A stretch of 46,920 nucleotides of DNA, taken from Candidatus Hydrogenedentota bacterium. Its GTDB lineage: Bacteria > Hydrogenedentota > Hydrogenedentia > Hydrogenedentales > SLHB01. Below, one piece after another: positions 1-43,141 of this stretch (positions are counted from its first letter, which is position 1; each line of letters begins with the position of its first letter). The notes beneath the pieces were generated by a model, which worked only from the letters and a program-made list of their open reading frames with translations, was not told where the DNA came from and did not search any database. Made by a program: the position numbers and the translations under genes. Where the stretch lies: contig JACRLJ010000062.1 in NCBI GenBank assembly GCA_016215105.1, forward strand, positions 1-46,920, read 5' to 3'.

Positions 1-28
1 CCCTAGACCCTAGACCCTAGACCCTAGG
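1..28. repeat. 7-bp tandem repeat CCCTAGA
   Basis: Four head-to-tail copies of CCCTAGA, the last one degenerate, run off the left edge of the window. Similar C-rich heptamers (ACCCTGA, CCCCAGA) occur at 19004-19060 and 37577-37606, so this looks like a genome-wide low-complexity filler rather than part of the following gene. Confidence 0.8.
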
Positions 29-48
29 CCCCGAAAGGCTCCGACCCA

Positions 49-17888: not shown

Positions 17889-19499
17889 CTAGCCCTGGTA
17901 TTCCTCCCCCGCTCCAAACCGTTTCACTATCCCGGCAATCTCTCTCTTGGCTTGCCGCGCAATCGCTGCGTCCGCAGCCACTACCTCCCAGCGCGCCAAC
18001 CCATTCTCGCTTTGCGAGATCCGATGGCACACCTGCAGCCAATCCCCCGCCAAATGCGCTTCCGAACCAATAACCAGGGGTATACCCCGCCGCATCATCG
18101 TCGCCTCCAACTCGTATCCATTGGGCATGCGCGTCATGGCCTCGGCGCCCAGTCCCTCGAAATGCGCCTGGACCGCTTCCAACGCCTCCGCACGCTTCTC
18201 GTCGGAAGGGAATTTGTAGCCCCACTCCCGCTCCCGCGCCGTCCGCGACTGGAGCTCAAAAAGCGCCTCGAACCGCGCCGGGTCGTCCTGCCACGCTTTC
18301 GACACCAGCAGCGCGATGTACAGGGTATTCTCCGTGCAGAATCGGCCACCATCCAACAGGAAGGACTCGTAGAAATGCGCGGATTCCTCGACCGTGCCGA
18401 ACATCGCCACGTTCTCAAACAGCGCGTTCTTGATTTGCGAGTGCCCGTTGCGGATGACGTTGACCGTCACGCCGGTTTTCGCCATTTCCATTACGGCAAG
18501 GGGGTTCGACTTCAAGTCGGCGTAGATGCCCAGTCCCGCGCCGCTGAACCGCTTCCGAATCGCCGGCAGAACTGCTGCGTACACGAAACTCGATGACAGA
18601 TACGTCCCGTCTCCGCGATAGAAATCGATCCGATCGCCATCACCGTCAAAAAACGTGCCCAGCACGAAGTCCCCCGACTTCAGCGCGGTTAGCCCTTCCG
18701 CGATGACCGCCGATTTCACTAGATTCGGATCACCCAGCGGAAACCGTCCGTCCGCGGCACGCCCAAACGCCAGCATCATCTCCCGGCCCGCCGCGCCGTT
18801 CAGGTAGTCGTGGAATACCTTCAACCCACGCAACGACCCCGCCTCGACTCCTGCCAAGTCCATGCTATAGGCGATATACTCCTCCGTAGGGTCATAAGCC
18901 GTAACCCGCCCCACGCAACCCGATGTGCGTGCTGCCGCTGGTCTGTCTGGTCTGTCAGACCTGTCAGACCTGTCAGACCTGTCAGACCGGTCGGACTGAC
19001 GCGGACCCTGAACCCTGAGCCCCGAACCCTGTCCCTCGCTCCGCACCCCAGACCCTTCCCCTCCCCCCGCTCCCGCCACATACAACTCCTGGATCTTGTC
19101 CAGTCCCCCCTCTGGCCCAATATGCTCCGCGATAGGCTTCACTCCGGGCCCCAGTATCTTCTGACCCGTATCCCCGGCCGGATTGTGCGACGCTCCGAAC
19201 ATCACGGCCGCCAACTCCGGACGCCGCATCGCCGCAAAATAGAATTCCGAGGTAGAGCACACGCCGGGTATGACCACTACGTCCAGCCCCGCTTGCAAGT
19301 ACGCCCCCGCCGCCAACTGCAAGTACCGCGGTCCCGTGCTCCGCGCGTCGTGCGCCACCAACACCCCGTCCACCCCTAACACCTCACGAAAATAGACCGC
19401 TTCCGCTCGCGCCAACCGCAACGCCAACGCGTCCGTCAGCGCCGCTGAAGTGGTCCGAATGTCATACGCGCGAAACATGGAAAGATTCAGGTCAGTCAT
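17889..19499 (-). CDS. Phosphomannomutase/phosphoglucomutase with repeat-derived insert
   Basis: The 536-residue alpha-D-phosphohexomutase should interconvert hexose 1- and 6-phosphates for nucleotide-sugar synthesis. Motifs seen: the N-terminal FRAYDIR, the phosphoserine loop FGASHNPAGDTG (Ser104), the metal loop FDGDGDR, and the substrate loop GTVEESAHFYE. Between domains, residues about 143-197 are a low-complexity insert (a Gly/Ser/Arg-rich stretch, then five SDR triplets) encoded by the 9-bp and 7-bp repeats at 18940-19060. Family members do not carry this. The insert keeps the frame and lies before TAYDPTEEYIAYSMDLAGVE, where a surface linker is plausible, so the enzyme may still fold. 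PMM versus PGM specificity cannot be decided. Confidence 0.88.
   Translation of the reverse strand: MTDLNLSMFRAYDIRTTSAALTDALALRLARAEAVYFREVLGVDGVLVAHDARSTGPRYLQLAAGAYLQAGLDVVVIPGVCSTSEFYFAAMRRPELAAVMFGASHNPAGDTGQKILGPGVKPIAEHIGPEGGLDKIQELYVAGAGGGEGSGVRSEGQGSGLRVQGPRQSDRSDRSDRSDRSDRPDRPAAARTSGCVGRVTAYDPTEEYIAYSMDLAGVEAGSLRGLKVFHDYLNGAAGREMMLAFGRAADGRFPLGDPNLVKSAVIAEGLTALKSGDFVLGTFFDGDGDRIDFYRGDGTYLSSSFVYAAVLPAIRKRFSGAGLGIYADLKSNPLAVMEMAKTGVTVNVIRNGHSQIKNALFENVAMFGTVEESAHFYESFLLDGGRFCTENTLYIALLVSKAWQDDPARFEALFELQSRTAREREWGYKFPSDEKRAEALEAVQAHFEGLGAEAMTRMPNGYELEATMMRRGIPLVIGSEAHLAGDWLQVCHRISQSENGLARWEVVAADAAIARQAKREIAGIVKRFGAGEEYQG
18940..19060. repeat. 9-bp and 7-bp tandem repeats inside the phosphohexomutase gene
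   Basis: From 18940 to 18993 there are six 9-bp units, mostly GACCTGTCA (first units GGTCTGTCT and GGTCTGTCA). They translate in frame on the minus strand as repeated Ser-Asp-Arg. From 19004 to about 19060 C-rich heptamers related to ACCCTGA follow, encoding the Gly/Ser/Arg-rich stretch. The same two repeat types occur between genes elsewhere in the window. Confidence 0.85.
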
Positions 19500-19750: not shown

Positions 19751-19978
19751 CTATATAAGACCTGCAAACCGATCTACATCTATTCCTATTCCCGCGTGTC
19801 GCAAGATGCTTCGCAGGGTTCCCCGGTCGAGTTCCTGGTGGTCCGGCACAACCACCTGCGCATAGGGATCGTTCCGGATGAGTATGATGTGACTTCCCCG
19901 CTGTCGCACGACCGCGAACCCGGCCTTCTGAAGCGCTTTGACGCATTCCCTGCCGCTCACCACGGGCAGACCGCTCAC
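19751..19978 (-). CDS. hicA: HicA-type toxin
   Basis: The 75-residue protein is a canonical HicA/YcfA mRNA interferase. SGRECVKALQKAGFAVVRQR is followed by GSHIILIRND, whose histidine is the catalytic residue of the family, then VVVPDHQELDRGTLRSIL and a short tail. It would bind and cleave mRNA when free of HicB. The GTG start at 19978 overlaps the hicB stop by four bases. Downstream is the gap holding hairpin copy 1. Confidence 0.88.
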   Translation of the reverse strand: MSGLPVVSGRECVKALQKAGFAVVRQRGSHIILIRNDPYAQVVVPDHQELDRGTLRSILRHAGIGIDVDRFAGLI

Positions 19979-20175
19979 AAAGCCACGACCTCCAACAGGT
20001 CTTCAGGCACTGGTTTTCCCTTCTCGAGCAGCACGTCCGTGTATAGGTCTATGGCCTCTCTCATATTCGACAGCGCTTCAGTCCGGCTCACCCCCTGACT
20101 GACGCAACCCGGAAGGCTCGGACATTCCGCCACCCAGTACCCGTCTTCTCCCGGATAGATGATTACTTTTCGCAT
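19975..20175 (-). CDS. hicB: HicB-type antitoxin
   Basis: The 66-residue antitoxin has the HicB pattern: VIIYPGEDGYWVAECPSLPGCVSQGVSRTEALSNMREAI, the compact RNase-H-like fold that covers HicA. No C-terminal DNA-binding domain is present, as in many minimal HicB proteins, so autoregulation may depend on the complex. ATG 20175 is preferred; GGAG lies upstream, and a GTG at 20184 is an alternative. The antitoxin precedes the toxin. Confidence 0.87.
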   Translation of the reverse strand: MRKVIIYPGEDGYWVAECPSLPGCVSQGVSRTEALSNMREAIDLYTDVLLEKGKPVPEDLLEVVAL

Positions 20176-20288
20176 GCCCTTCACTCCGTCACGCCAGCCC
20201 AGTCATCCTCGTTCGATTATAGCATTTCGGATACGCTTCTTCGCCACCGGCGCCACACAACGCGGGCATCCCACGGGCCCCAACCAAC

Positions 20289-36985: not shown

Positions 36986-37111
36986 CACAAAGTAGAAGCG
37001 GCGTCCCCGCCGCTTCCGATGGCCTTCCCACCGCGCATTGGCTGCCCCAATACCGTACCCCTTCTGTCCCATCGGCCCCATCCGCCCCATCGGTCCCATC
37101 GGTCCCATGGG
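36986..37111. repeat. Hairpin-plus-9-mer cassette A
   Basis: A 9-bp stem GAAGCGGCG (36995-37003) / CGCCGCTTC (37008-37016) encloses TCCC. A shared spacer starts GATGGCC, then five 9-bp units (37067-37111: TCCCATCGG, CCCCATCCG, CCCCATCGG, TCCCATCGG, TCCCATGGG) follow. Cassettes B and C (42944 and 43580) repeat the hairpin; B also repeats the spacer and has 9-bp units of a different sequence. The surrounding gap from leuA to 37606 contains only repeats and no supported gene. Confidence 0.75.
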
Positions 37112-37496: not shown

Positions 37497-37576
37497 TTCA
37501 CTTGTGATTTCCGCAGAAATACCAAAGAGCGCAACGCCGTCCCGCGCCCAAGGCAGCATTTCCCGTGACACCCAAA

Positions 37577-37606
37577 TCCCAAACCCCAGACCCCAGACCC
37601 CAGACC
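37577..37606. repeat. 7-bp tandem repeat CCCCAGA
   Basis: Three to four copies of CCCCAGA follow a degenerate CCCAAAT unit. On the minus strand this tract abuts the point where the RHS fragment at 37607-37827 loses similarity to YD repeats. Confidence 0.7.
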
Positions 37607-42943: not shown

Positions 42944-43141
42944 GCCAAAGTAAAAGAGGCGTTCCCGCCTCTTCCGATGGCCGTCTCACTGCGCCTCGAC
43001 AGGCCCAACGCCACACTCCTGCCTACCCTATCCGTCCACTTTGTCCACTTTGTCCACGATGTCCACGATGTCCACGATGTCCACGATGTCCACGACGTCC
43101 ACGACGTCCACGACGTCCACGACGTCCACGACGTCCACAAG
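42944..43141. repeat. Hairpin-plus-9-mer cassette B
   Basis: The stem AAGAGGCG (42954-42961) / CGCCTCTT (42966-42973) has loop TTCC. The spacer is the GATGGCC(G/T)TC... type seen in cassette A. Twelve 9-bp units follow (43034-43141): GTCCACTTT x2, GTCCACGAT x4, GTCCACGAC x5, GTCCACAAG x1. Confidence 0.8.

Follow-up and report, generated by a model that had tools for sequence, protein, structure and literature searches.

The window, by which we mean the whole stretch of 46,920 nucleotides that was analysed, carries on its reverse strand a phosphohexomutase gene whose reading frame passes without interruption through a block of short tandem repeats. The gene and the features that distinguish it are the following:

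17889..19499, reverse strand: phosphohexomutase gene (PGM/PMM superfamily), 536 aa, uninterrupted frame
18939..19076, reverse strand: insert of 138 bp (46 codons, residues 142-187), defined against the nearest orthologues and counting one of the two flanking 8-bp near-repeats
19069..19076, reverse strand: GCGGGAGC, near-direct repeat bounding the insert on its 5′ (coding) side
19005..19075, reverse strand: G-rich degenerate 7-bp block (GGGTTCA-like), Gly/Ser/Arg-rich when read, placed from repeat calls and register
18952..18996, reverse strand: 9-bp array with the coding-strand unit GTCTGACAG, read as Ser-Asp-Arg (TRF, 5.0 copies, 94% matches)
18931..18938, reverse strand: GCGGCAGC, near-direct repeat (7/8 match to GCGGGAGC) at the 3′ edge of the insert
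18755..18756, reverse strand: junction of a 30-bp in-frame deletion, where relatives have about 10 residues (GADLxPLHFx, a domain II β-strand)

Genes for a HicA toxin (PF07927) and a HicB-like antitoxin (PF15919) lie just upstream of the mutase, at 19754-20184 on the reverse strand.

The homology of the window gene to α-D-phosphohexomutases (PMM/PGM, e.g. PDB 5bmp and 1k35) is clear, and its product is a putative enzyme of this kind. The gene product has the fold and the active-site motifs of this group: Foldseek recovered the PMM/PGM fold (best match 5bmp, E=2.8e-24), the motifs GASHNP, FDGDGDR and EESAH are kept, and Ser104, DGDxDR and EES form invariant columns when the protein is aligned with its relatives. 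PF02878, which represents domain I with the phosphoserine loop, matches with E=5e-17. Domain II was not recovered as complete, PF02879 scoring 23.3 bits, under its cut-off of 29.3; the orthologue L150 scores 47.2 bits, above the cut-off.

The insert is extra DNA that is specific to this lineage and is read in frame. We measured the region linking domains I and II between 'GLDKI' and 'AYDPTEEY' after aligning the protein with those of 25 full-length relatives and the codons with those of five orthologues. The relatives come from records titled Hydrogenedentes/Hydrogenedentota, Armatimonadota, Planctomycetaceae, Chloroflexi, Sphaerochaeta, Treponema and others. The linker region spans 77 residues in the window mutase as opposed to 31-33 residues in all 25 relatives (38-78% identity), none of which has an insertion there. 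The extra residues number about 46 (44-46, depending on the relative), fewer than the "about 55" of the preliminary description. The same description had placed 9-bp and 7-bp repeats inside the mutase, and the TRF calls at 18952-18996 and 19005-19031 (the latter within the 7-bp block, 3.9 copies, 80%) do fall within the open frame. It had also named the finding that would speak against inserted repeat DNA, namely a non-repetitive linker of similar length in close homologues. This is not what the relatives of the mutase have, but it is what we found for an AraC-type regulator (C98:13259-14509) described below.

On the coding strand, the G-rich 7-bp block precedes the 9-bp units. The latter run on in diverged form to about 18940, TRF reporting a related 2-copy stretch at 18938-18956. 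Two G-quadruplex-type motifs are present on the coding strand of the 7-bp block, and the 9-bp part is predicted to fold as a hairpin on both strands. The 8-bp near-direct repeats at the two edges are suggestive of an insertion. GCGGGAGC and GCGGCAGC are spaced by exactly 138 bp, a likeness reached in 0.2% of flank shuffles at that register (P ~0.002), and removing the insert with one 8-bp copy leaves a linker of 31 residues, equal to that of the nearest relatives.

Modeling with AlphaFold2 (28-sequence alignment) gave pLDDT values below 50 for residues 146-190, the neighbouring domains being mostly near or above 90. This stretch sits at the junction of domains I and II, preceded by helix 133-145 and followed by strand 199-201. 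The product of the insert is accordingly modeled as a disordered part of the interdomain linker. The surface loop proposed earlier is not supported in that form: what is predicted is an interdomain linker, and its exposure at the surface is at most suggested by the low confidence of the model where domains I and II meet. A similar qualification applies to the proposal that changes in array length would only lengthen a loop: it would hold for the 9-bp part, whose period keeps the frame, but not for the 7-bp half, where a single unit gained or lost shifts the frame. Slippage in the 7-bp block is, however, probably hindered by its degeneracy.

The repeats of the insert belong to a class that is found throughout the genome. 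In a sample of 1.82 Mb, about a third of the mutase's own genome, TRF reported 24 period-9 arrays at a score of at least 50 and none in Markov-shuffled sequence; the repeats in the insert are therefore not a product of chance. Among the short repeats of this genome, period-9 tandem arrays are in fact what stands out most: three strict copies of GTCNGAYNN match 318 times genome-wide, compared with 6 matches for a reversed-pattern control. Of the 17 strict arrays in the unbiased 1.82 Mb sample, 15 lie between genes and two within them, though 83% of bases are coding (by simple arithmetic, a chance of ~2e-10), with coding and intergenic DNA separated by an in-house simple hexamer scorer and no standard annotator. 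The earlier view of the insert as intergenic-type repeat DNA agrees with this distribution. Its further claim, a likeness to intergenic repeats elsewhere in the window, is true of the period and of the GTCC/CCC motifs, not of the exact unit, which differs in the following arrays:

37068..37108, forward strand: related intergenic period-9 array
43034..43141, forward strand: related period-9 array of another sub-type, 12 units GTCCACGAT/GTCCACGAC, called by TRF at 43034-43138, with no confident gene over it
37571..37606, forward strand: related period-7 run (CCCCAGA/CCCAAAC)
1..31, forward strand: related period-7 run (CCCTAGA) at the contig end

The combination of the two repeat types is also not confined to the mutase. 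Among 29 arrays, three (the window insert included) have a 7-bp run at most 60 bp away, as against 0.29% of random intergenic points, and in all three composites the G-rich 7-bp run lies 5′ of the 9-bp units, giving them the same polarity. The two composites outside the mutase are:

L188 15650-15721, contig C15: intergenic composite, 7-bp then 9-bp
L191 8140-8305, contig C39: intergenic composite, 7-bp then 9-bp

A relative, G033, likewise has a 7-bp-then-9-bp arrangement between genes, plus a second, inverted 7-bp run beyond. Its composite (L062 1500-1690, G033:C17) reads as a G-rich 7-bp run, a 9-bp palindromic array and an inverted C-rich 7-bp run, and as RNA it is predicted to form a single very stable hairpin of -110 kcal/mol.

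Because the class occurs genome-wide, is biased toward intergenic DNA and shows an equal 7-then-9 order elsewhere, the insert is, judged by its sequence, intergenic repeat DNA of the composite type native to this genome. This assignment holds for the class and comes without a near-identical full copy: in the mutase's own genome no full-length second copy of the insert was found, and only its 9-bp and 7-bp parts alone have matches. The hairpin folding of the array and the G-quadruplex-type motifs of the 7-bp block hint at a possible effect of the intergenic copies on transcripts or on replication.

The origin that we favour, and regard as fairly probable, is a neutral in-frame passenger insertion of such a composite into the linker of the mutase. 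A ready-made, genome-native unit, consisting of the G-rich 7-bp block and then the 9-bp GTCNGAYNN array, would have entered between domains I and II, presumably in a single event. That its 138 bp are divisible by three might be due to chance or to the loss of frameshifting versions. Some 46 Gly/Ser/Arg and Ser-Asp-x residues would then be translated and loop out unstructured in the real protein, and the insert would be tolerated as a passenger with no selected protein-level function, as may be the case for Rickettsia palindromic elements in genes. Counting against this origin are the loss of a strand from the same protein, the lack of an array-wide insertion signature and the lack of a near-identical copy of the insert. 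With regard to the signature, a comparison with MITEs and transposed elements can point to the 7/8 direct repeat at 138 bp here, but the target duplications sought over the 29 arrays showed no clear enrichment (flanking direct repeats, 34% versus 22%). We are doubtful of a broader interpretation, by which the composites form a mobile, non-autonomous Hydrogenedentota family whose spread by insertion leaves short duplications of the target; most copies would land between genes and an occasional one in frame in an enzyme. If it were true, the 9-bp period and the palindromic GTCNGAC core would provide new disordered Ser-Asp-x linkers.

Two known systems offer close parallels to the insertion. The nearest of them, Rickettsia palindromic elements (RPEs; Ogata et al. 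2000) of ~105-146 bp, are found both between genes and in frame in conserved enzymes, and the RPE peptide inserted in guanylate kinase seems neutral or slightly harmful (PMC2229807). Like an RPE, the mutase insert lies in frame in a conserved gene whose orthologues are without it, belongs to repeats that are also dispersed between genes (here as a class, without near-identical copies), and has a part, the 9-bp one, that folds as a hairpin. However, RPEs have a conserved sequence with terminal inverted repeats, whereas the insert consists of variable tandem 9-bp and 7-bp units, and its host phylum is unrelated to Rickettsia. The second parallel is provided by the tandem repeats of Borgs, which occur between genes and in ORFs, where their units are three-divisible and create new disordered regions that homologues lack (PMC9879509). 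The 9-bp part of the insert is similarly three-divisible and its product has pLDDT below 50. On the other hand, Borg units are near-perfect and virtually all unique per genome, while here one degenerate 9-bp family extends genome-wide, and the 7-bp block is translated yet not three-divisible. The insert thus works like RPEs in genes and like Borg amino acid repeats and is a member of neither class, being neither a conserved palindromic element nor made up wholly of three-divisible units. Beyond Rickettsia and Borgs, it represents a clear, alignable case in which repeat DNA of the intergenic kind has turned into coding sequence in a bacterium. The 7-bp block taken by itself resembles the G-rich heptamers of Xanthomonas and Nostoc, which are multi-copy, mainly intergenic and G-quadruplex-capable (PMC4692102); these differ in unit (GGGAATC and GGGGACT, versus GGGTTCA/GGGTCTG here, with G-quadruplexes putative), and the run here is joined to 9-bp arrays.

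The missing domain II strand, overlooked in the preliminary description, leaves the condition of the enzyme in doubt. The ten deleted residues are kept by every relative and correspond to strand 205-209 in the model of an orthologue; in the AlphaFold2 model of the window mutase, the loop after the deletion (residues 251-261) has pLDDT below 50. Near the deletion, a Pro-to-Leu change affects a column that is invariant in all other sequences. Judging from these models, the window copy is perhaps no longer a good enzyme. It is conceivable, though in our view unlikely, that this reflects early gene decay, in which the mutase of this lineage is on its way to losing function and both the insertion and the 30-bp deletion are tolerated because it is no longer under selection. 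The lost strand and the Pro-to-Leu change would fit such a scenario, as would the sporadic occurrence of the gene (close orthologues or fragments in 7 of the 60 genomes searched, its own included) and the second, distant PMM/PGM homologue on contig C25 of the same genome. Yet all 536 codons are open, none of the catalytic motifs is damaged, and apart from the two indels the gene has diverged as a constrained one would: dN is ~0.17-0.19 with dS saturated, equal to the values between orthologues, and the branch of the window mutase is about as long as those of its sisters. Since the motifs are intact and both the branch length and dN are ortholog-like, the indels may be recent, or tolerated.

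Could the repeats have arisen in place, the GC-rich codons of the linker slipping into 7-bp and 9-bp units with nothing inserted? Slippage can create short tandem units, and a local origin through errors of duplication has been proposed for short-repeat prokaryotic satellites (PMC6749651). We nevertheless find local expansion quite improbable, given that two unrelated unit types stand in the genome-typical order and that an 8-bp near-repeat marks the exact length difference, all of which an insertion explains more easily.

The Ser-Asp-x array might instead be a selected, tunable linker, in which changes in 9-bp copy number vary the distance between domains I and II. Relevant here are two further arrays found inside genes of the same genome:

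L145 13780-13813 (G000:C98): 9-bp array SSSDQSDPSDPSDQPTS between sensor and HTH in an AraC/PocR-type regulator gene (C98:13259-14509)
L188 9035-9068 (G000:C15): 9-bp array TSDRSDPSDKSDRSE near the C-terminus in the gene of a 588-aa protein (C15:78960-80723)

Both lie in variable stretches of their proteins. SSSDQSDPSDPSDQPTS replaces a variable linker about equally long and so barely alters linker length in the regulator; TSDRSDPSDKSDRSE adds ~7 residues to the 588-aa protein, for which no Pfam match was found. That all three intragenic arrays use the Ser-Asp-x frame and are placed in linkers or variable loops is what a tunable linker would predict, as is the behaviour of Borg in-ORF repeats, all three-divisible and mostly in disordered regions (PMC9879509). 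However, the use of this frame in three out of three cases, itself about a 1 in 27 outcome by simple count, is mild evidence of selection at most, because the palindromic GTCNGAC core gives Ser-Asp-x in two of six frames and another frame often has TGA. Moreover, relatives do well enough lacking the insert, a unit gained or lost in the 7-bp block beside the array shifts the frame, and the one draft assembly shows no length variants. We therefore consider selection for a tunable linker very improbable. An assembly artefact, in which a repeat-mediated misjoin put intergenic repeat DNA into the mutase of a 171-contig draft with multi-copy repeats, is scarcely credible, the array being just ~45-60 bp long and both flanks belonging to one gene, in frame.

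The insert also points to an abundant Hydrogenedentota class of 9-bp repeats, of which we found no report: literature searches on intergenic repeats of 9 bp (nonanucleotides) and on tandem repeats in Hydrogenedentes turned up no relevant paper. The genome studied here is represented by one draft assembly of 171 contigs; the idea that arrays at contig ends cause the assembly breaks was rejected (0 of 78 contig starts). GTCNGAYNN arrays are present in many genomes of the order and absent from some, and their distribution is patchy even inside genera, with 0 versus 130 matches in g21 and 103 versus 0 in g37. Such genus-level patchiness (0 versus 130) opens the gain and loss of arrays to study. 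Outside the order, the genome G091 has 62 GTCNGAYNN matches.
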